Shown here: one piece after another, positions 41,538 to 52,029 of the stretch | Layout of the letters: each line of letters starts with the position of its first letter | How positions within the stretch are numbered: the stretch's first letter is position 1 | NCBI RefSeq assembly: GCF_002795865.1 | Contig: NZ_CP024920.1 | Coordinates: 2,577,001 to 2,641,000, forward strand | DNA length: 64,000 nt | Direction: 5' to 3' | Origin: Qipengyuania seohaensis | GTDB taxonomy: Bacteria > Pseudomonadota > Alphaproteobacteria > Sphingomonadales > Sphingomonadaceae | The notes under the pieces: model-generated | Told to the model about the DNA's origin: nothing | Databases searched by the model: none | What the model saw: the letters and a program-made list of their open reading frames with translations, nothing else | Position numbers and translations under genes: made by a program

Positions 41538-41572
41538 TTGCGCAAACGGCGATATTGGAACATAATGAGAAC
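41538..41572 (+). promoter_or_regulatory. imuA promoter with overlapping LexA box
   Basis: TTGCGC (41538-41543), 17 bases, CATAAT (41561-41566). The alphaproteobacterial LexA box GAAC-N7-GAAC lies at 41558-41572 (GAACATAATGAGAAC) and covers the -10 element, so LexA would block transcription until DNA damage. Confidence 0.8.
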
Positions 41573-41590
41573 GAACGAGTCGATTCTCTC

Positions 41591-42373
41591 ATGTCCCATG
41601 CCGATCTTTCCTCCCTGCCGATAACGGCCTTCGAAGACGTTGCCGCGCTGTCCGCACGGCGCAGCGTGCGCTGGCGTCCGGGGCTTGCAGCCGTGCAGGG
41701 GGCCGCTCACCACACCGAAGTGTTCACCGCTTCGGGCGATGCGGCAGGGGCAGGGGTGGCGCTGGCATTGGCGCTCGACGATTTGCGGCACCTGCCGCGG
41801 GCGGATGGCAGCGAAGCCGATGATCGGCGCAACGTGCTGTGGGTGCAAACCCGCGATGCGGTGCGCCTGAGCGGGCGGCCCTATCGCGCGGGCCTTCCGC
41901 AAAGCCTGCAATCGCGGCTCGTCCATGTGCTGGCCGAGAAGGCCGAGGATGCGCTCTTCGCCCTGGAAGAAGGGCTGCGCTGTCGCGATTTCGCATTCGT
42001 GATCGGCGAGATGGCTGGCAATGCCAAGGCGCTCGATTTCACCGCCTCGCGCCGCTTGACGCTGACGAGCGAGCGGCACGGCATCCCGCTGTTCCTCGTG
42101 CGGATCGATGCCGCGCACGACCTGTCGTCTGCCCGGATGCGCTGGGAAGTGGCCAGCGCGCCGTCTTCTGCGCCCGCGTGGAACGCACAGGCCCCCGGCG
42201 ATCCGGCGTGGAAGGCGGAGCTTTTCCGCGCGCGCTCCCATGCTCCGGGTACTTGGACGCTGAGTGACGGAGAAACTTCGCTAACCGCCAGTAAGCTGCG
42301 CGAGGATACCGATCGCGCCGTGGCGGGCTGGACGGCCGGGTTGCAGCATCGCCGCTCGCCCCGCGCCCGATGA
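41591..42373 (+). CDS. imuA: ImuA, accessory protein of the SOS mutasome
   Basis: 260 residues, RecA/SulA-like. The chain has VRWRPGLAAVQGA at the start, a nucleotide-site-like region around NVLWVQTRDAVRLSGRPYRAGL in part, and a basic C-terminus. ImuA works with ImuB and DnaE2 in damage-induced mutagenesis. I chose ATG at 41591; the longer frame from TTG 41555 would begin inside the LexA box. No good Shine-Dalgarno is seen (leader about 18 bases). It overlaps imuB by ATGA. Identity rests mainly on the partner gene and operator. Confidence 0.88.
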   Translation: MSHADLSSLPITAFEDVAALSARRSVRWRPGLAAVQGAAHHTEVFTASGDAAGAGVALALALDDLRHLPRADGSEADDRRNVLWVQTRDAVRLSGRPYRAGLPQSLQSRLVHVLAEKAEDALFALEEGLRCRDFAFVIGEMAGNAKALDFTASRRLTLTSERHGIPLFLVRIDAAHDLSSARMRWEVASAPSSAPAWNAQAPGDPAWKAELFRARSHAPGTWTLSDGETSLTASKLREDTDRAVAGWTAGLQHRRSPRAR

Positions 42374-43959
42374 ACGCGAAGACACCGGATGCCGTATCTT
42401 CCCGCCGCATCCTATCCATCTGGCTGCCCGCTATAGCCATGGACCGCTGGCGAAACGCCGGGGACGAGGACCGCCGCTCGCTCGACAGTCGGCCGCTGGT
42501 CCTGATCGCCGATACCGCGCATGGGCCGCGGATCGAGGCAGCGAACCGCGCAGGCATGGTGGCAGGCGCCCGGCGCGGCATGATGCTGGCCGACGCGCGG
42601 ACCCTGTGTCCCGACATCGTCACCGCGCCGAGCGATCCGGCAGGCGATCTCGCCTTTCTCGAAAAGCTGGCGATCTGGGCGCGGCGCTGGGGGCCGTGGT
42701 CGGCGATGGATGCACCCGACGGCCTGCTGGTGGACGTTACCGCCGTCCCGCACCTGTTCGGCGGGGAGGAGAAGCTGGTCGCCGATGTCGAGGCGGCATT
42801 CGCGCGGCGCGAGCTTGGCCTGCGCTGTGCCATCGCCCCCACGGCGGGCGCGGCCTGGGCGCTGTCGCACTTCGGCCCGCAAGGCGCGATCCTGGAGGGG
42901 CGAGGCGATTTCGAGGCCCGGCTGGCGGAACTGCCTGTCGCCGCGCTGCGGCTCGACGACGATGTGCTTACGGTCCTGCGCCGCCTCGGCCTCAAGCGGC
43001 TGGGAGATCTGACCGGTATCGAGAACGGAGGAAGCGGGCGCGATGCCATCCAGCGCCGCTTTCGCAACCGCAAGTCGCCTGCCGCCAACCCGCTTATCCG
43101 CCTCGACCAGATCCTCGGCCGGGTGCCGGAGCCCTTGCTGCCCGTGGTCCCGCAGCACATGCCGCTGGTGCAGCGCCGCCTGATGGAGCCGATCCGCCAC
43201 CGCCAGCTGCTGGACAAGGTCGTCGAAGACTTGGCGCAGGACATGGCGCGCGAACTGGAAGGGCGCGGCGAAGGGGCAAGGCGGCTCGAACTGGGCCTGT
43301 GGCGCGTCGATGGCGAAGTCGTCGTGCGCCGACTGGAAATGGCCTCTGCCACGCGCGAGGCGGGGCATATATGCCGCCTGTTCGCTGCACGGCTGGACGA
43401 TGTCGATGCCGGTTTCGGGATCGAGATGCTGCGCCTGCGCGCTAGCTGGGCCGAACCGCTGGCGCTGGAGCAGGGCGATATCGAGGCGGCGGCCGAAACG
43501 CATGGCACATCGTTGTCGGCCTGTATCGACCGGCTGACCGTGCGGCTGGGGGCGAGGGCGGTCAGCCGTCCCGTCGCCTTTGCCAGCCACATTCCCGAAC
43601 GCGCGCAGCGCTGGCAGCCGCCGCTGGACCCGGAACCCGCTTCACAAGGAGAGTTCGCTTTCCACAAGAGGCCATTGAAAATGCTCGACAAGCCGGAAAT
43701 GATTTCGGTGCTCTACGCAACGCCCGACGGCTATCCCAAGCGTTTTCGCTGGCGCGGCGGGGTGCATGAGGTCACGCGGGTCGAAGGACCAGAGCGGATC
43801 GCGCCGGAATGGTGGCGCGAACGCGGTGGCACGCGGCTGCGGGACTATTACCGGATCGAGGACGACCGTGGTCGCCGCTACTGGATCTACCGGCTCGGCA
43901 TCGTGGGAGACGGGCGCGGCGGAGCTCCCGACTGGTACCTGCAGGGATTGTGCGCCTAG
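42370..43959 (+). CDS. imuB: ImuB, Y-family polymerase-like protein without catalytic residues
   Basis: 529 residues, Y-family (DinB-like) fold. The N-terminal motif reads LSIWLPAIAMDRW instead of the D-x-D of active polymerases, and the second acidic motif (S-x-D-E) is replaced by APDGLLVDVT. So ImuB is predicted inactive and to act as a bridge between the beta clamp, ImuA and DnaE2; QGEFAF near residue 430 could be the clamp motif. Overlaps imuA by four bases and shares its LexA-controlled promoter. Confidence 0.9.
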   Translation: MNAKTPDAVSSRRILSIWLPAIAMDRWRNAGDEDRRSLDSRPLVLIADTAHGPRIEAANRAGMVAGARRGMMLADARTLCPDIVTAPSDPAGDLAFLEKLAIWARRWGPWSAMDAPDGLLVDVTAVPHLFGGEEKLVADVEAAFARRELGLRCAIAPTAGAAWALSHFGPQGAILEGRGDFEARLAELPVAALRLDDDVLTVLRRLGLKRLGDLTGIENGGSGRDAIQRRFRNRKSPAANPLIRLDQILGRVPEPLLPVVPQHMPLVQRRLMEPIRHRQLLDKVVEDLAQDMARELEGRGEGARRLELGLWRVDGEVVVRRLEMASATREAGHICRLFAARLDDVDAGFGIEMLRLRASWAEPLALEQGDIEAAAETHGTSLSACIDRLTVRLGARAVSRPVAFASHIPERAQRWQPPLDPEPASQGEFAFHKRPLKMLDKPEMISVLYATPDGYPKRFRWRGGVHEVTRVEGPERIAPEWWRERGGTRLRDYYRIEDDRGRRYWIYRLGIVGDGRGGAPDWYLQGLCA

Positions 43960-44273
43960 GCGGGCTCGGTTGCGGCTTCTTCGCCCACTTCTTCCTCGTC
44001 CGGCACAACAGCCTCTTCGGGCCCATGTTGCAATTCGGAAAGTTCGGGATTGAGTGCGCTGGTCTTGCACACCTGGTCGCCCGCCACGATCGTCGCCGCG
44101 ATGCGCGACTGTTCCATCGCTTCGGGCGTGTTGTTGAAGGTCGGCACGATTGCTTGCGGCGCGATGCACTTGCGCACTTCGCGGCGGTCTTCCTCGACCG
44201 GGGTATCGGCTTCCTGGGCAAGCGACGGGGTAGCCAAAACGACGAGCGAAGATACGAAAAGGACAGCACGCAT
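43956..44273 (-). CDS. Small secreted hypothetical protein
   Basis: 105 residues. A Sec signal peptide (MRAVLFVSSLVVLATPSLAQ) is followed by an acidic chain with two cysteines (VRKCIAPQ and QVCKTSALNP) and a very acidic Glu-rich C-terminus. No family recognised. Its stop overlaps the imuB stop by four bases (convergent). It is the first of three minus-strand genes that lie between the two SOS operons. Confidence 0.65.
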   Translation of the reverse strand: MRAVLFVSSLVVLATPSLAQEADTPVEEDRREVRKCIAPQAIVPTFNNTPEAMEQSRIAATIVAGDQVCKTSALNPELSELQHGPEEAVVPDEEEVGEEAATEPA

Positions 44274-44328
44274 GGAAATCTCCTACGCGCGGACTTCTAC
44301 CGCCGCGCGCTTTCGCGTGCCTGAACCG

Positions 44329-44727
44329 TCAGCCTTCGGAAACCAGCGATGCCCTGCGCGAGCGCTTCTGGCCAAGCGGGATATTGCCGAACTTGGCCAC
44401 GGGTCCGGACTGGACCTCAACCTGTTCGACGGTCTCTTCCACGACGTGCATGGGGACCGGTCTTTCGAAAATGATGCCGCAGCTCTTGTCGTTCGCCCAG
44501 ACGATCTTGCCGAAATGTTCGTGCCCGTTCCAAGAAAGCAGGCCCGACACGCCTTCGGTAGGTGGATTGCTCGTCTCCAATCGCGCCCCGGCGTCGGAAA
44601 GGTCGGACAGGCGCCCGACCCGATCACCGCCCAGCATCTTGAGGGTAGCGGGGCAATCGACGGCATAGCGGGCGGTCGCTCGCCGTTCCTGCGGCGCTAT
44701 GGCTTGCTTCCTGCGGAATAGCCCCAC
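44329..44727 (-). CDS. PilZ domain protein
   Basis: 132 residues, one PilZ domain. The c-di-GMP-binding motifs are there: RRATARY (R-x3-R) near residue 16 and DLSDAGARL (D/N-x-S-x2-G) near residue 44. Soluble PilZ proteins act as c-di-GMP receptors controlling motility or polysaccharide. The start is at 44727 or a few codons later. Nothing around it shows which process it controls. Confidence 0.85.
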   Translation of the reverse strand: MGLFRRKQAIAPQERRATARYAVDCPATLKMLGGDRVGRLSDLSDAGARLETSNPPTEGVSGLLSWNGHEHFGKIVWANDKSCGIIFERPVPMHVVEETVEQVEVQSGPVAKFGNIPLGQKRSRRASLVSEG

Positions 44728-44808
44728 ACATTTTCTCCCCTTGGTTTCGCCTTGTGCGTTGCGAAGGGTAAATGTCGCGCTTCCCGACAGGATTACCGCG
44801 CCATTAGG

Positions 44809-44843
44809 AAACGGGCCGAAAGCGACAAGCTTCCGACCCGTTT
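44809..44843 (-). terminator. Probable terminator of the carbonic anhydrase gene
   Basis: A 14-base imperfect stem (12 pairs) AAACGGG..AAAG against CTT..CCCGTTT with a seven-base loop. On the minus strand it follows the carbonic anhydrase stop. The T run is short. Confidence 0.5.
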
Positions 44844-44860
44844 CAAGAGGTTATTCGCCG

Positions 44861-45583
44861 TTATTCGGGTGCGACGAGGAGGCGCGTCCCCAGCGGCTGG
44901 ATCGACCGGGCGGAGGGGCCGAGGTTGGCTTCCATCGCCGCGATCTGTTCCGCGCTGGCGGTCATCACTTCGTCGGCAACATGCCAGTTCACACCTTCGC
45001 TGCACGGCGGCGTGGTGAGCGAGCCCATGTAGCGATAGATGCCGGTGTCTTCGGGCACCATGTCGTTCACGTCGAATTCGACGGCGGCACCCTTTCCGGC
45101 TCCGACACCCGCCACGATGGTCTCAAGCGCGGGATTGGCGTCGCCTTCTTTGAACATGACTCCAAGAACGCCCAGTTCCCCTGTTTCGGTGGCGTGGACG
45201 AAGTGCGCGACGAGGGGATAGCGCTTGCCGCTGATCGCGTGTTCCGACGGGGTGTGGAAGTGAACCTGGATCAGGGCGAAATCCTTGCCACCCGAATTCA
45301 TTCCGAGGCCGGCGGGGAAGTCCACCTGGACCTTCTCCTTGCCGAGCACGATCGTGCCTGCGGTTTCGCCGAAGTTCGTTTCCAGTTCGATATCGCCGCG
45401 TGCATTGGCGGCACTGAGATCGATCGGCGACTGGTTCAGGCCTGCATCGCACATGGAATAGGCCGCGTTTACGGTAGCCCAGCGTTCGGGCGATACGCCG
45501 TCACTGAAGCTCCAGTCTTTTTCCTGCGCAGCGAGAGGCGTTGCCGCAAGACCGATCAAGGCGAGAGAAGCGAGATATTTCAT
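44861..45583 (-). CDS. Alpha-class carbonic anhydrase (periplasmic)
   Basis: 240 residues. Signal peptide about 1-20 (ATPLAAQ). Zinc ligands are H108 and H110 in QVHFHTPSEH and H127 in PLVAHFVH; the substrate pocket SLTTPPCSEGV is intact and the cysteine pair C45/C194-like could form the usual disulfide. Converts CO2 and water to bicarbonate and a proton in the periplasm. It is divergent from the LexA-controlled radical SAM operon but shows no LexA box on its own side. Confidence 0.93.
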   Translation of the reverse strand: MKYLASLALIGLAATPLAAQEKDWSFSDGVSPERWATVNAAYSMCDAGLNQSPIDLSAANARGDIELETNFGETAGTIVLGKEKVQVDFPAGLGMNSGGKDFALIQVHFHTPSEHAISGKRYPLVAHFVHATETGELGVLGVMFKEGDANPALETIVAGVGAGKGAAVEFDVNDMVPEDTGIYRYMGSLTTPPCSEGVNWHVADEVMTASAEQIAAMEANLGPSARSIQPLGTRLLVAPE

Positions 45584-45776
45584 TGCATACTCCAGACTGG
45601 CGACCAGAGGGTCGCTGAATGTAGGTATGCCGACGATGTCTTAGTTTCGTTTCTGACAGGCCGTCGGCGTTACTTACGTCCGACATCACGTGCGATTGCA
45701 CGCCAGAGGGGCCCGGTCCGTGGCGTTTATACGCGGAAGCTGCGGTGAGGTTCCCGCCAAATATAACTTTTGATAT

Positions 45777-45808
45777 TTGCGAATCCTACAGCGGAACGTA
45801 TAGTGAAC
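45777..45808 (+). promoter_or_regulatory. Radical SAM-udgX-dnaE2 promoter with overlapping LexA box
   Basis: TTGCGA (45777-45782), 16 bases, TATAGT (45799-45804). LexA box GAACGTATAGTGAAC at 45794-45808. The start codon follows two bases after the box, so the transcript start (about 45811) coincides with the ATG. Confidence 0.82.
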
Positions 45809-45810
45809 AA

Positions 45811-47055
45811 ATGGCCGCGCAAACTATCCTGCAGAAGCTCGAGATTCTCGCCGATGCGGCGAAATACGATGCTTCCTGCGCCTCGTCCGGCACGGCGAAG
45901 AAGAACAGCCTTGGCGGCAAGGGGATCGGTTCGACCGAAGGGATGGGCATCTGCCACGCCTATGCGCCCGATGGCCGCTGTATCTCGCTGCTCAAGATAC
46001 TGCTTACCAACCACTGCGTGTTCGACTGCCATTACTGCGTCAATCGTAAGAGCTCCAACGTGGCGCGGGCGCGCTTCACCCCGCAGGAAGTGGTCGACCT
46101 GACGCTGGCCTTCTACCGGCGCAATTACATCGAGGGGCTGTTCCTCTCCTCCGGCATCGTGAAGAATTCGAACCACACGATGGAGCAGATCGTCGAGGTC
46201 GCGCGGATCTTGCGCGAAGAGCACGATTTTCGCGGCTACATTCACCTCAAGACCATACCCGAGGCCGATCCGGAGATTGTCCACCAGGCGGGGCTTTATG
46301 CCGACCGGGTCTCCATCAATGTCGAACTGCCGACCGACAGCGGCCTCACCCGCCTCGCGCCAGACAAGGACGCGCGGCAGATCGAAGGCGCGATGGGCAA
46401 GGTGAAGGCCGACCTGGTCGAGGCGAAGGATGCGAGGAAGCGTTTCCGCCACGCGCCGCGCTTCGCGCCCGCAGGACAGTCGACGCAGATGATCGTCGGT
46501 GCCGATGCCGCGACCGATGCGGATATCGTTGGCAAGGCGAGCCGGCTCTACGACAATTTCCGTCTGCGCCGCGTCTATTACAGCGCCTTTTCGCCGATAC
46601 CCGATGCCAGCGCCGTGCTGCCGCTGAAGCGTCCGCCGCTGATCCGCGAACACCGGCTCTACCAGTCCGACTGGCTGATGCGCTTCTATGGCTACAAGCC
46701 TTCGGATGTGATGCAGGCGACCGAGGCGGACGGAAACCTGCCGCTCGACATCGATCCCAAGCTCGCCTGGGCATTGAAGTTCCGCGAGGCTTTTCCGGTC
46801 GACGTGAACCGCGCGAGCAAGGAGCAATTGCTGCGTGTGCCGGGGCTGGGCGTGAAGGCGGTGGGCAAGATCCTCGCCAGCCGCCGCCACCGCGCGCTGC
46901 GGCTGGACGACGTGGCACTGCTCACCCAGTCGATCACCAAGGTGCGACCTTTCATCTGCACCGTCGATTGGCGGCCTATCACGCTGACCGACCGCGCGGA
47001 TTTGCGCAGCCTGCTCGCGCCGAAGTCGGAACAGCTTGAATTGTTCGCCGCATGA
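45811..47055 (+). CDS. SOS-linked radical SAM protein (putative DNA modification/repair, TIGR03916 type)
   Basis: 414 residues. The radical SAM motif C-x3-C-x2-C is C69, C73 and C76 in HCVFDCHYCVNR; the barrel continues through EGLFLSSGI and HLKTIPEADPEI. The C-terminus has a helix-hairpin-helix, VNRASKEQLLRVPGLGVKAVGKIL in part (LRVPGLGVKAVGKILA), which binds DNA. Earlier frame to 45745 would start before the promoter, so ATG 45811 is chosen. The reaction is unknown. Its stop overlaps the UdgX start by ATGA, and both lie under a LexA box together with dnaE2. Confidence 0.88.
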   Translation: MAAQTILQKLEILADAAKYDASCASSGTAKKNSLGGKGIGSTEGMGICHAYAPDGRCISLLKILLTNHCVFDCHYCVNRKSSNVARARFTPQEVVDLTLAFYRRNYIEGLFLSSGIVKNSNHTMEQIVEVARILREEHDFRGYIHLKTIPEADPEIVHQAGLYADRVSINVELPTDSGLTRLAPDKDARQIEGAMGKVKADLVEAKDARKRFRHAPRFAPAGQSTQMIVGADAATDADIVGKASRLYDNFRLRRVYYSAFSPIPDASAVLPLKRPPLIREHRLYQSDWLMRFYGYKPSDVMQATEADGNLPLDIDPKLAWALKFREAFPVDVNRASKEQLLRVPGLGVKAVGKILASRRHRALRLDDVALLTQSITKVRPFICTVDWRPITLTDRADLRSLLAPKSEQLELFAA

Positions 47056-48488
47056 CCGCGCTCCAGCACGTCAAGCTAGGCACCTATTACGTGGTGCATT
47101 TGCCCGAAGCCGATGACTTCGATTTCTGGCGCGAGAGGGCGCGCGCGCTGGTCCAGAGCGATGTGCCGCCCGACCGCGTGGCCTGGGTCGAGCCGGGCGG
47201 GAGCGGCGACCTGTTCGCTCACGGCGAGCGGCGCATGCCCGTGCCGCCGATGGATGCGAAGCCGGTGCGTGCCAACCGCCGCTTCGTCAGCCTGGCAAGA
47301 AATGCGATCCTGCACTCCGATCCGGAACGGTTCGCGCTGCTCTACCGCCTGCTCTGGCGGCTCCAGTCTTCCCCGCGGATGATGGAAGACAAGGCGGATC
47401 CCGATGTCCGCCGGGTGGAGGAACTCGACAAGAATGTACGGCGCGACAGCCACAAGATGCACGCCTTCGTCCGCTTCCGGCTGGTGGAAAGTGAAGACGA
47501 AGACGTGGGCGAGCATTACGTCGCCTGGTTCGAACCCGACCACCACATCCTGCGCGCCAATGCCGGCTTCTTCATGCGCCGCTTCTCGAACATGCGCTGG
47601 TCGATCCTGACCCCGCGCGGAAGCCTGCACTGGGATACCGAGACCATGTCCGAAGGCCCGCCCGCCGAGCGCCACGATGCGCCCGGCGGCGATCCGATGG
47701 AGGACCTGTGGCGCACCTATTACGCTTCCATCTTCAACCCCGCGCGGCTGAAGATCGGCGCGATGCTGAAGGAGATGCCGAAGAAATACTGGAAGAACAT
47801 GCCGGAGGCTTCGCTCATTCCCGAGCTTGTCGCAGGCGCACAGGGGCGCGAGGCCAGGATGGTCGAAAAAGGCGCGCTGGAGTTCGAAGAACGCCCCGAT
47901 ACGCTCGCCGCGATCGATAAGGCGATCCACGCCTGCCGCAAGTGTCCCATCGGCCAGCTCGACAACCATGCCGTCATGGGCGAGGGGCCGCAGGATGCCG
48001 CATTGATGATCGTCGGCGAACAGCCCGGCGATCAGGAGGACCAGACCGGTCGGCCTTTCGTAGGGCCTGCCGGGCAATTGCTCGACACGCATCTGGAGAA
48101 GGTCGGCATCGACCGGCGCGCGGCCTACGTCACCAATGCGGTGAAGCATTTCAAATACGTCCAGCGCGGCAAGCGGCGGCTGCACCAGAACCCCGGCGCG
48201 AAGGAGATCGACACCTGCCGCTGGTGGATCGAGGGCGAGCGCGCGATCGTGCAGCCAAAGCTGGTGCTCGCCATGGGGGCCAGCGCGGCGCGAGGGTTGC
48301 TGGGCAAGACCGTGAGTATCTCCAGGGTCCGCGGCGCGCCGATCCCGCTGGAGGACGGCAGCGAGCTCTGGGTCACCGCTCATCCATCCTACCTGCTGCG
48401 TCTCGAAGGTGCCGCGCGCGAGGAGCAGGCGCAGCTGTTCGATGCCGACCTCGCCGCCGTCCGCGCGCGGCTGGAGGAACTGGCGTGA
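47052..48488 (+). CDS. udgX: DUF4130-UdgX fusion: uracil-DNA glycosylase of the self-crosslinking type
   Basis: 478 residues. The N-terminal part (about 1-250) is DUF4130 (TIGR03915), the usual partner of the radical SAM protein; the C-terminal part (about 285-478) is a family-IV-like uracil-DNA glycosylase. GEQPGDQED (322-330) and the loop KRRLH (374-378) match UdgX, in which the loop histidine binds covalently to the abasic site after uracil removal. Cysteines C295, C298 and C389 could hold an Fe-S cluster, the fourth ligand is not obvious. dnaE2 begins two bases after its stop. Confidence 0.88.
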   Translation: MTALQHVKLGTYYVVHLPEADDFDFWRERARALVQSDVPPDRVAWVEPGGSGDLFAHGERRMPVPPMDAKPVRANRRFVSLARNAILHSDPERFALLYRLLWRLQSSPRMMEDKADPDVRRVEELDKNVRRDSHKMHAFVRFRLVESEDEDVGEHYVAWFEPDHHILRANAGFFMRRFSNMRWSILTPRGSLHWDTETMSEGPPAERHDAPGGDPMEDLWRTYYASIFNPARLKIGAMLKEMPKKYWKNMPEASLIPELVAGAQGREARMVEKGALEFEERPDTLAAIDKAIHACRKCPIGQLDNHAVMGEGPQDAALMIVGEQPGDQEDQTGRPFVGPAGQLLDTHLEKVGIDRRAAYVTNAVKHFKYVQRGKRRLHQNPGAKEIDTCRWWIEGERAIVQPKLVLAMGASAARGLLGKTVSISRVRGAPIPLEDGSELWVTAHPSYLLRLEGAAREEQAQLFDADLAAVRARLEELA

Positions 48489-48489
48489 G

Positions 48490-51400
48490 ATGCCCGAGAA
48501 CGACCTCCAGATACCCAAGCGGACGATCGAGCTCGATCCTGCGGGCATAGACGCCCCGCAGCGCAGCGCCTTTGTCGAGCTTGGCCTCGTCTCCTGCTTC
48601 AGCTTCCTGCGCGGGGCGTCCGATGCGGTCGACCTCGTGTTGCAGGCGCGCGCGCTGGGTTATGACGCGGTGGGGATCGCCGATGCCAATACGATGGCGG
48701 GCGTCGTGCGCGTCCATACCGAGGCGAAAACGCTCAAGCTGAAACCGTGCATCGGCTGCCGGATCGAAACGGTCGAGGGGCTGGCCTTCCTCGCCTATCC
48801 CAAGAACCGCAAGGCCTATGGTCGCCTGTGCCGCCTCATTTCCGCCGGGCGCATGCGCACCCTGTCGGGCGAATGGCAGGAGAAGGGCGAATGCGACATC
48901 TCCCTGCCGATGCTGTCCGCGCATAGCGAGGGGGTGCAGCTGATCCTGCTGCCTCCGCGCGACCTCGCGCGCGAGTTCACCGTGCCCGCATGGGCGAGTA
49001 ATGTCGTGGGTCTTGCAGGCGAAAAGGTACAGGACCTGGTCGCTGCCCCGTTCAAGGACATCGTGCCGCATCTCGCCGCAGGCCTGCCGACCCTGCGCCA
49101 TATCGCAGCGGCCTTCCTCTACACCGATAGCGATGTGGCGCGGATCGAGCGGCTCGATGCGCTCGCCCGCGCGAACGGCCTCTCCATCCTCGCCACCAAC
49201 GACGTGCATTACGCGACGCCCGACAGGCGTCCGCTGCAGGACGTCATGACCGCGATCCGGCACAAGACCACCGTGGCGCGGGCCGGGCACCTGCTCCACG
49301 GCAATGCCGAGCGTTACCTGAAACCGCCCGAGACCATGTGCCGCCTGTTCGAACGCTGGCCGCACGCCATTTCCGCCGCACGCGAAGTGGCCGATGCCTG
49401 CAACTTCAGCCTCGACGAGCTCAAATACGAATATCCCGAGGAACTCTATCCCGGCGGCGTCGAACCGCAGGAATACCTCGAAAGCGAAACATGGAAGGGC
49501 GCGCAATGGCGCTATCCGGCGGGCATTCCCGATAGCGTGACCGAAACGCTGCACAAGGAACTGGCGCTGATCGGGAAGATGGACCTCGCGCGGTATTTCC
49601 TGACCATCAAGGACATCGTCGATTTCGCACGCGAGAAGGTCGACCCGCCGATCCTGTGCCAGGGGCGCGGCAGCGCCGCCAATTCGGCCGTGTGCTACTG
49701 CCTCGGCATCACCAATGTCGACCCTGCACAGCACCAGTTGCTGTTCGACCGCTTCATCTCCGAAGACCGCAAGGAACCGCCCGATATCGACGTCGATTTC
49801 GAGCACGAGCGGCGCGAGGAAGTGATCCAGTATCTCTATCGCAAATACGGTCGCCACCGCGCCGGACTCTGCGCCACGGTGATCCACTATCGCCCGCGCA
49901 TGGCGATCCGCGAAGTGGTCAAGGCGATGGGGCTGACCGAGGACGTGACCGCCGCGCTCGCCAAGACGGTTTGGGGCGGGTGGGGTCGCGAAATCAGCGA
50001 GAAACACGCGCAAGAGACGGGCATGGACGTGACCGATCCGCACCTGAAGCGGGTTCTCAAGCTGACCGAGCAAATGATTGGAATGCCGCGCCATTTGTCG
50101 CAGCACGTCGGCGGGTTCATCCTTACCGAAGGCGCGCTCACCGAAACGGTGCCGGTGGGCAATGGCGCCATGCCCGATCGCAGTTTCATCGAATGGGACA
50201 AGGACGATATCGAGGCGCTAGGCATCCTCAAGGTCGATGTGCTGGCGCTGGGCATGCTGACCTGCATCAGGAAATGCCTCGACCTGCTCGACGATCATCA
50301 CGGCCGCACGCTGACGCTGGCCAATGTCCCGCGCGAGGACCCGGAGACCTATGCCATGCTGCGGACAGGGGACTCGCTCGGCGTCTTCCAGGTCGAAAGC
50401 CGGGCGCAGATGAACATGCTGCCGAGGCTGCGCCCGCGCCAGTTCTACGATCTCGTCATCCAGGTCGCCATCGTGCGCCCCGGCCCGATCCAGGGCGACA
50501 TGGTCCACCCCTACCTGAAGCGCCGTCGCGGGGCCGAACCCGTGGTTATCCCTGCGCCAAGTCCGCAGCACGGCCCGCCGGACGAGCTGTCGAGCATTCT
50601 CGAGCGTACGCTGGGCGTCCCGATCTTCCAGGAACAGGCGATGAAGATCGCCCTCGACGCGGCGAAGTTTTCGTCCAAGGAGGCGAACCGCCTGCGCAAG
50701 GCCATGGCCACATTCCGCAGCCGCGGGATGGTGGACGAGCTTCAGGACATGATGGTCGAGCGCATGGTCACGCGCGGCTACGACCGCGAGTTCGCGCAGC
50801 GCTGCTTCAACCAGATCCGCGGTTTCGGCGAATACGGCTTTCCCGAAAGCCACGCGGCGAGCTTCGCTCACCTTGTCTACGTGTCGAGCTGGCTCAAATG
50901 CCACTTCCCCGCCGCCTTCGCCTGCGCGCTGCTCAATTCGCAGCCGATGGGTTTTTATGCGCCTGCGCAGATCGTGCGCGATGCGGCGGAACACGGCGTG
51001 CGCGTGCTGCCGGCGGACGTGAATCTGTCGCAGTGGGATTGCACGCTGGAACGGAACGGAGAAGGCAGGGCGGGTGCGGGCGACAGCGGACGGCTCGACA
51101 AGCATATCGCGCTGCGCCTTGGCCTGCGTCAGATCGACGGGCTGCCCGAAGCGGTTGCGGCGCAGCTGATCGCCGAACGCGAGGCCAACGGTGCCTATGC
51201 CGATGTGCGCGCGCTGCGCGACCGCGCTCGCACCAGCCCCGCGCATGTCGAACGGCTCGCCAGCGCCGATGCCTTCGGTTCGATGCAGCTGACCCGCAGG
51301 CAGGCCCTGTGGGATGCGCGCAGCCTTGTCGGCGGGCCCGACCTGCCGCTTTTCGCCGCCGCTGCAGCGCGGGACGAGGGGGCCGAAAAACAGCCTACGC

Positions 51401-52029
51401 GCCTGCCGCAGATGCCGCTGTCGGAAGAGGTCGTCGCGGATTACCAGACCACGCGCCTCAGCCTGAAGGCGCACCCCATGGCCTTCCTGCGCGCAAGCCT
51501 TGCCGAACGCGGCTTCGTGCGCGCCTGCGACCTGCGCGCGAAGAAATTCCGCTCCATGGTCCATGTCGCAGGCGTGGTGCTGATCCGCCAGCGTCCGGGC
51601 AGCGCCAAGGGCGTGTGCTTCATCACGCTGGAAGACGAGACGGGCGTGATCAATCTCGTCGTCTGGCCGGACCTGAAGGAAAAGCAGCGCCGCGTGGTCA
51701 TGGGCGCGCGCCTGATGGAGGTGCGCGGGCGTGTCGAATATGATGACGAAGTGATCCATGTGATCGCGCAGCACATGACCGATGCGACCGGGGAACTGCA
51801 CAAGCTGTCCGACGACATGCTCAACGCTCCGCTCGCACGTGCCGATCACGTCTCTTCGCCGCTACCGGATAAGTTCAATCCACGCGATAATCTGCGCGAG
51901 GGCAAGGACGATCCCTACCAGCCCATCGAGCCGTGGCAGGAACCGCCGCCGGGCAATCGCGAATGCGGCTGGCATGGCAGCCACCCGCGCGATGTGCGCA
52001 TCATTCCGAAATCGCGCGACTTCCATTGA
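48490..52029 (+). CDS. dnaE2: Error-prone DNA polymerase III alpha-like subunit DnaE2 (ImuC)
   Basis: 1179 residues. The order is PHP domain (about 25-270), polymerase palm with PDIDVDFEHERREEV (catalytic aspartates), fingers, helix-hairpin-helix near 880-920 and a C-terminal OB fold (VHVAGVVLIRQRPGS). DnaE2 performs translesion synthesis with ImuA and ImuB after DNA damage and causes induced mutations. I chose ATG at 48490, two bases after the udgX stop. It is normally found next to imuAB; here it sits in a second LexA-controlled operon about 6.5 kb away. Confidence 0.93.
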   Translation: MPENDLQIPKRTIELDPAGIDAPQRSAFVELGLVSCFSFLRGASDAVDLVLQARALGYDAVGIADANTMAGVVRVHTEAKTLKLKPCIGCRIETVEGLAFLAYPKNRKAYGRLCRLISAGRMRTLSGEWQEKGECDISLPMLSAHSEGVQLILLPPRDLAREFTVPAWASNVVGLAGEKVQDLVAAPFKDIVPHLAAGLPTLRHIAAAFLYTDSDVARIERLDALARANGLSILATNDVHYATPDRRPLQDVMTAIRHKTTVARAGHLLHGNAERYLKPPETMCRLFERWPHAISAAREVADACNFSLDELKYEYPEELYPGGVEPQEYLESETWKGAQWRYPAGIPDSVTETLHKELALIGKMDLARYFLTIKDIVDFAREKVDPPILCQGRGSAANSAVCYCLGITNVDPAQHQLLFDRFISEDRKEPPDIDVDFEHERREEVIQYLYRKYGRHRAGLCATVIHYRPRMAIREVVKAMGLTEDVTAALAKTVWGGWGREISEKHAQETGMDVTDPHLKRVLKLTEQMIGMPRHLSQHVGGFILTEGALTETVPVGNGAMPDRSFIEWDKDDIEALGILKVDVLALGMLTCIRKCLDLLDDHHGRTLTLANVPREDPETYAMLRTGDSLGVFQVESRAQMNMLPRLRPRQFYDLVIQVAIVRPGPIQGDMVHPYLKRRRGAEPVVIPAPSPQHGPPDELSSILERTLGVPIFQEQAMKIALDAAKFSSKEANRLRKAMATFRSRGMVDELQDMMVERMVTRGYDREFAQRCFNQIRGFGEYGFPESHAASFAHLVYVSSWLKCHFPAAFACALLNSQPMGFYAPAQIVRDAAEHGVRVLPADVNLSQWDCTLERNGEGRAGAGDSGRLDKHIALRLGLRQIDGLPEAVAAQLIAEREANGAYADVRALRDRARTSPAHVERLASADAFGSMQLTRRQALWDARSLVGGPDLPLFAAAAARDEGAEKQPTRLPQMPLSEEVVADYQTTRLSLKAHPMAFLRASLAERGFVRACDLRAKKFRSMVHVAGVVLIRQRPGSAKGVCFITLEDETGVINLVVWPDLKEKQRRVVMGARLMEVRGRVEYDDEVIHVIAQHMTDATGELHKLSDDMLNAPLARADHVSSPLPDKFNPRDNLREGKDDPYQPIEPWQEPPPGNRECGWHGSHPRDVRIIPKSRDFH

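Follow-up and report, generated by a model that had tools for sequence, protein, structure and literature searches.

A radical SAM-DUF4130-UdgX unit with a clamp-type tag and a LexA-type box stands between imuB and dnaE2 in Qipengyuania seohaensis

Introduction

DUF4130, radical SAM proteins and uracil-DNA glycosylases (UDGs) were tied to mutagenesis in 2013 (PMC3765255), and PMC8565304 describes a LexA-controlled, two-gene UDG-COG4277 operon of Bacteroidetes that is reported also for Verrucomicrobia and Alphaproteobacteria; SOS control of the radical SAM-UDG pair is already published. Two other described systems are close, the imuA-imuB-dnaE2 cassette of Caulobacter and mycobacteria and the UdgX protein of Mycobacterium smegmatis. 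We compare these systems with a stretch of 64,000 nucleotides (nt) from Qipengyuania seohaensis (positions 2577001-2641000 in a genome of 2.94 Mb on one contig, NZ_CP024920.1 in assembly GCF_002795865.1; hereafter, the window). In the window, open reading frames (ORFs) and protein profiles identify two groups of genes on the + strand, imuA-imuB followed by a radical SAM gene (rSAM), a gene for a DUF4130-UdgX fusion (udgX) and dnaE2.

As in the Caulobacter and mycobacterial cassette, the three mutasome genes are present with a LexA-type box and ImuB has a clamp-type motif in the corresponding position (QGEFAF here); unlike that cassette, they are split by the rSAM-udgX pair, and dnaE2 is apparently read from the promoter of the pair. 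The Bacteroidetes operon likewise places a UDG and a COG4277 protein under LexA control; in contrast to it, the pair here forms one operon with dnaE2, and the clamp-type tag and the cysteine triad of the rSAM protein are described here. The UdgX half of the fusion shares motif A (GEQPG), the R-loop (KRRxH) and motif B (HPS) with the M. smegmatis protein but is fused behind DUF4130, with a radical SAM gene adjoining. SplB-like proteins, too, are radical SAM proteins with an SOS box and a C-terminal clamp-type tag, whereas TIGR03916, the family of the rSAM protein, is another subfamily with extra cysteines, a helix-hairpin-helix (HhH) and a DUF4130 partner.

Judged from sequence, the locus most likely encodes a clamp-tethered, SOS-induced lesion-processing unit that is co-expressed with the mutasome. 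Relative to the literature matches listed, the new elements are the putative leaderless SOS promoter, the probable insertion of the pair ahead of dnaE2 and behind imuB, the clamp-type tag and the cysteine triad. Several phyla have the rSAM-UDG pair, and a conserved tag would locate where it works; the linked operon would identify strains that co-express error-prone synthesis with radical chemistry and uracil capture.

Results and discussion

Conserved LexA-type boxes at both gene groups

The rSAM protein, whose family we take to be COG4277, scores 572.9 bits against TIGR03916 (curated cut-off 343.5), and its gene adjoins DUF4130, as is characteristic of the family. The ImuA assignment is based on a weak NCBIfam match (24.5 bits; cut-off 150), the position of the gene ahead of imuB and its relatives; a Pfam search of the ImuA product gave no match. 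The coding regions overlap by 4 nt in both imuA/imuB and rSAM/udgX, and 1 nt separates the udgX stop codon from the dnaE2 ATG. The imuA, imuB and dnaE2 families, that is, the components of a mutasome, are found under SOS-type boxes, in this genome in two transcription units. An earlier sequence-only reading of this DNA had located the two groups in this way, 1.85 kb apart and each with a GAAC-N7-GAAC box overlapping the -10, and both observations were correct (Table 1). The genome encodes two further members of the UDG superfamily and one further Y-family protein.

The number of bare boxes was rejected as evidence of regulation, because the motif occurs five times in the window (1.68 expected; 5 of 100 shuffles reach five) and 90 times in the genome (91 for the reversed control). 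We count the box as evidence because it is conserved across relatives. The exact box is present upstream of rSAM in 78/80 loci (the best 80 of 595, mostly named Sphingomonadales), as compared with 81/15264 control windows. The corresponding figure for imuA is 23/25 (sequences that extend far enough upstream, including the window), as compared with 109/4856 controls. Among 20 stretches of this genome selected around AT-rich or intergenic-looking matches, the same motif is found just upstream of a SplB-like radical SAM gene and of lexA, recA, uvrA and radA; Pfam confirms the radical SAM domain as well as lexA and recA, and uvrA and radA are assigned from their N-terminal sequences. Retention of the promoter box in relatives at both rSAM and imuA, as expected for a LexA regulon, supports joint LexA-type control of the two gene groups; to this extent the proposal of the sequence-only reading that they are induced together is upheld.

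In 62 of the 80 loci the box starts at -17 from the rSAM ATG; in these 62, T is found at -35 in 92% and G at -33 in 95%, with TATA at approximately -12 to -9, and this spacing matches the ATG as the start of transcription. We infer that the rSAM promoter is leaderless, with a predicted start on the rSAM ATG, and that LexA would cover its -10 (the promoter hexamers of imuA and rSAM in Table 1 were chosen by eye). In the interval that runs from 300 nt ahead of the udgX end to 120 nt beyond it, no box is present in any of 25 sequences in which the pair is linked to dnaE2, so dnaE2 is probably transcribed from the rSAM promoter.

A clamp-type tag at the end of the rSAM protein

The pentamer QLxLF and the hexamer QLxLxF are beta-clamp motifs. 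The rSAM protein of the window ends in EQLELFAA, and the pattern Q[LM]x[LM][FWLY] occurs within the last 35 residues of 123/127 rSAM sequences, as compared with 4/2167 control frames (other open frames of the same loci, 250 codons or longer between stops, taken from all six reading frames and including non-coding ones); the remaining four sequences end in QLSLAF, QFELFAA (twice) and QLALI. In 24 diverse rSAM sequences, which include Fusobacterium, Clostridia and Gemmatirosa (one Acinetobacter sequence appears twice), Q408 and L409 never vary, unlike residues 400-407. An AlphaFold2 model of the protein has a mean predicted local distance difference test (pLDDT) score of 77.6, with residues 407-414 below 50, which is consistent with a flexible peptide. 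The rSAM protein has, that is, the QLxLF-type motif in a predicted flexible tail that characterizes beta-clamp clients, and the tag probably tethers it to the replication clamp. A literature search on radical SAM proteins and the sliding clamp found nothing on the rSAM tag in titles or the starts of abstracts.

Clamp-type motifs are found also in two other proteins encoded behind such boxes. QxxLxF is present near the C-terminal part of ImuB in 19/26 sequences. The SplB-like protein of this genome ends in the clamp-type tag QLRLL; in its family (30 loci, drawn from 53 matching genomes among 59), such a tag is present in 27/30 loci, this genome's included, and the box in 30/30.

Probable insertion of the pair into an imuA-imuB-dnaE2 operon

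In the family of the window, rSAM is above the cut-off in 127 of 199 sampled genomes (one of the 127, G223, has an internal stop); all 127 have DUF4130, with the two starts at most 5 kb apart in 122, and DUF4130 without an above-cut-off rSAM is found in 2 genomes. The conserved pairing that the sequence-only reading described is therefore evident in this sample, as already published. A dnaE2 gene lies in the flank of 24 of the 80 rSAM loci (several of which end at contig ends), and 23 of these 24 also have imuA and imuB. For the adjacency survey that had been proposed, the counts cover 150 listed dnaE2 places (145 genomes): rSAM and dnaE2 are at most 10 kb apart in 40 of the 101 genomes with both among the matches listed, and in the remaining 61 they lie on different contigs or at a distance above 10 kb. 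The distance from udgX to dnaE2 (with the first position of the tblastn match taken as the dnaE2 start) is at most 10 nt in 21 of the 25 linked sequences.

The pair is located between imuB and dnaE2 in one Erythrobacteraceae/Novosphingobium group. In a tree of rSAM proteins, the linked state requires 8 changes, as compared with 21.3 with shuffled labels; eight sequences are unlabelled, and three labelled as alone (L120, L143 and L150) stop less than 400 nt after udgX, where a later dnaE2 could not be seen. In a tree of dnaE2, the linked state requires 4 changes, as compared with approximately 18 with shuffled labels (one change is a labelling artefact; L192, labelled canonical, and L100 are one and the same gene, and L204 is a long-branch sequence). 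The linked dnaE2 genes form a group inside the canonical ones, and three canonical sequences (L191, L194 and L236) fall inside or beside the linked clade. Because imuB immediately precedes dnaE2 (imuA-imuB-dnaE2) in 20/20 selected unlinked genomes, these trees suggest a single insertion of the rSAM-UdgX pair between imuB and dnaE2, followed by losses and replacements. Q. vulgaris, Alg239-R51 and Actirhodobacter are inside the linked rSAM clade, yet their dnaE2 genes are from other clades; the rSAM protein of the window is 96% identical to that of Q. vulgaris and 98% identical to that of Q. polymorpha.

The same arrangement could reflect regulatory convenience, that is, the pair and DnaE2 would share an SOS promoter because the cell requires both after damage, but would act on different lesions without contact, with a chance insertion kept by co-regulation. 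The separation of the genes in 61 of 101 genomes, the several losses of linkage within the clade and the dnaE2 genes from other clades in the three organisms just named are as expected for this alternative; in contrast, the presence of clamp-type tags in rSAM as well as in ImuB suggests that the two share a platform, and the short udgX-dnaE2 spacing is likewise against it. We consider mere co-regulation somewhat unlikely, although it is the strongest of the alternatives.

Proposed mechanism

The explanation that we favor, with a probability of approximately 0.6, is an inserted SOS unit with LexA-opened promoters and a clamp-held rSAM protein beside DnaE2. An SOS-inducible rSAM-DUF4130 unit (here with DUF4130 fused to UdgX) would have entered an ancestral imuA-imuB-dnaE2 operon between imuB and dnaE2, bringing its own LexA-controlled leaderless promoter. 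After damage, cleavage of LexA would open both promoters, and dnaE2 would depend on that of rSAM for its transcription; the QLELF tag would hold the rSAM protein on the DnaN clamp, as ImuB would be held by its own motif. Given this shared tethering, we propose that lesion processing and DnaE2 bypass would occur at the same clamp-marked gaps, with UdgX trapping uracil (e.g., from deaminated cytosine lesions) beside the radical SAM step.

Several observations weigh against this explanation. The two gene groups are set apart in the window by an imuB-rSAM gap of 1851 nt, and the exact box is missing from two of the 80 rSAM loci (L119 and L145, each with a one-base variant) and from two of the 25 imuA sequences. 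Clamp motifs are short, most of the rSAM sequences are close kin, the tag controls include non-coding frames, and the protein extends beyond the motif in 4 of the 24 diverse sequences (L211, L216, L218 and L220); also, the window ImuB has QGEFAF instead of QxxLxF, which is missing in 7/26 ImuB sequences. With respect to linkage, 44 genomes among the matches listed have dnaE2 without the rSAM unit; conversely, an SOS-boxed rSAM-DUF4130-UdgX unit persists in G221, G356 and L109 (Q. algicida) and an SOS-boxed rSAM-DUF4130 in G295, and a search for dnaE2 in these four found just replicative-type DnaE. Neither the unit nor dnaE2, therefore, requires the other, and the idea that rSAM-UdgX is an obligate DnaE2 partner was rejected on this basis and on the separation of the genes in 61/101 genomes.

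UdgX as an optional partner

Every sequence hallmark of UdgX crosslinking is present in the fusion of the window: GEQPG (residues 322-326, motif A), KRRLH (374-378, R-loop) and HPSYLLR (444-450, motif B). The nearest solved relatives are UdgX structures (E-value 1e-42), as compared with 4e-29 for a plain uracil-DNA glycosylase (1ui0). As a separate observation, the R-loop of Qipengyuania sp. YIM B01966 (L087) is KRRLN, that is, Asn occupies the position of the crosslinking His.

The mechanism offered in the sequence-only reading was that UdgX covalently caps abasic sites, so that the crosslinked site becomes a defined substrate or a shield for DnaE2 bypass. The intact hallmarks and the separation of udgX and dnaE2 by 1 nt are compatible with such a cap, and PMC10359453 proposes that UdgX protects abasic sites; however, UdgX is kept in genomes without dnaE2, and the cap leaves the rSAM protein unexplained. 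In addition, DUF4130 without a fused UDG adjoins rSAM in Acinetobacter and Fusobacterium (DUF4130 by Pfam) and in three alphaproteobacterial loci (L039, L040 and L043), and gut clostridial records have stand-alone DUF4130-like frames after rSAM. The open frames of 14 of the 56 genomes over the cut-off are at most 343 residues and are therefore too short for a DUF4130-UdgX fusion (of the 14, G647 matches partially). By these comparisons UdgX is an optional add-on to rSAM-DUF4130. Because neither UdgX nor DnaE2 is an obligatory partner of rSAM-DUF4130, the crosslink as bypass substrate or shield is unsupported, although not refuted, and we regard it as improbable; of the joint-induction proposal, the shared LexA-type control and the UdgX hallmarks are retained.

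A search by sequence found no meaningful solved relatives of DUF4130. For comparison with DHH/DHHA1 phosphoesterases, DUF4130 was inspected for conserved Asp and His residues that could be metal ligands. In 14 diverse DUF4130 sequences no Asp or His is conserved in at least 13, but in an alignment of 72 mainly proteobacterial sequences D214 does not vary, and conservation reaches 90% at H88, H134, H164, D22, D116 and D195; DUF4130 as an obvious metal enzyme is not supported by these alignments.

Extra cysteines in the rSAM protein

In addition to the radical SAM cluster motif, the rSAM protein has three extra invariant cysteines (Table 1) that suggest a second metal cluster and so point beyond single-cluster lyase chemistry. 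Its C-terminal HhH matches Pfam HHH_3 below the cut-off of that family, and the solved relatives found by sequence are just weak ComEA-type HhH and radical SAM matches (E-value at least 0.035). Cytosine in dimers deaminates rapidly. The rSAM protein might, then, reverse or remodel an ultraviolet lesion in the manner of spore photoproduct lyase, with UdgX trapping the uracil formed from dimer cytosine; the likely DNA-binding HhH and the pairing with a UDG fit this chemistry and the extra cysteines fit it less well, and we judge it unlikely. Spore photoproduct lyase is not among the 50 matches listed for the rSAM protein, which excludes nothing.

A broader proposal can be made only tentatively, and we doubt that it will hold in full: TIGR03916 proteins may be clamp-tethered, two-cluster radical SAM enzymes that chemically repair or remodel lesions in replication gaps, with DUF4130 as a catalytically silent, RecJ/Cdc45-like DNA-binding partner, and in Erythrobacteraceae they may be part of one ImuB-DnaE2 clamp complex, which would make a radical-chemistry step part of the mutasome.

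Features of the locus and its relatives

Table 1. Features of the two gene groups and of the SplB-like gene (window positions unless marked as genome).
Feature	Position	Strand	Description
Predicted imuAB promoter	41538-41566	+	-35 TTGCGC 41538-41543, 17-nt spacer, -10 CATAAT 41561-41566
LexA-type box GAACATAATGAGAAC	41558-41572	+	exact GAAC-N7-GAAC; overlaps -10 of imuAB promoter
imuA	41591-42373	+	260 aa
imuB	42370-43959	+	529 aa; Y-family-like mutasome adaptor; IMS, IMS_C, DUF6504
ImuB QGEFAF	43645-43662	+	residues 426-431; variant of hexamer clamp-type motif
Gap genes	43956-45583	-	small ORF, PilZ protein, carbonic anhydrase
Predicted rSAM-udgX-dnaE2 promoter	45777-45804	+	-35 TTGCGA 45777-45782, 16-nt spacer, -10 TATAGT 45799-45804
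LexA-type box GAACGTATAGTGAAC	45794-45808	+	exact GAAC-N7-GAAC; covers -10 of rSAM promoter
rSAM	45811-47055	+	radical SAM protein, 414 aa; TIGR03916 (rSAM_link_UDG)
Span with extra invariant cysteines	45877-45981	+	C23, C48, C57; possible auxiliary cluster
Radical SAM cluster motif CX3CX2C	46015-46038	+	C69/C73/C76
QLELF beta-clamp-type motif	47032-47046	+	rSAM residues 408-412, C-terminal
DUF4130-UdgX fusion	47052-48488	+	478 aa; TIGR03915 and TIGR03914, both above cut-off
UdgX R-loop KRRLH	48171-48185	+	includes crosslinking histidine position
dnaE2 / imuC	48490-52029	+	1179 aa; PRK05672, 1374 bits (cut-off 939)
SplB-like radical SAM gene	genome 2797143-2798225 (L007:444-1526)		LexA-type box at start

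A hemerythrin (HHE) gene is found between rSAM and the DUF4130-UdgX gene in 16 of the 77 sequences having both genes (L118:11314-11796 and 15 other Sphingomonad loci; Pfam-confirmed for three); its product perhaps shields iron-sulphur clusters from oxygen. Anti-phage defence models gave no matches to the rSAM, DUF4130-UdgX and hemerythrin proteins. On an Azospirillum plasmid, the pair is interrupted by a TnpB-family gene (L209:7246-8388) that separates rSAM from the UdgX gene. A PilZ-like ORF (judged by eye) returns in the imuB-rSAM gap of several relatives, and this gap is less than 90 nt in L085, L096, L098 and L110.

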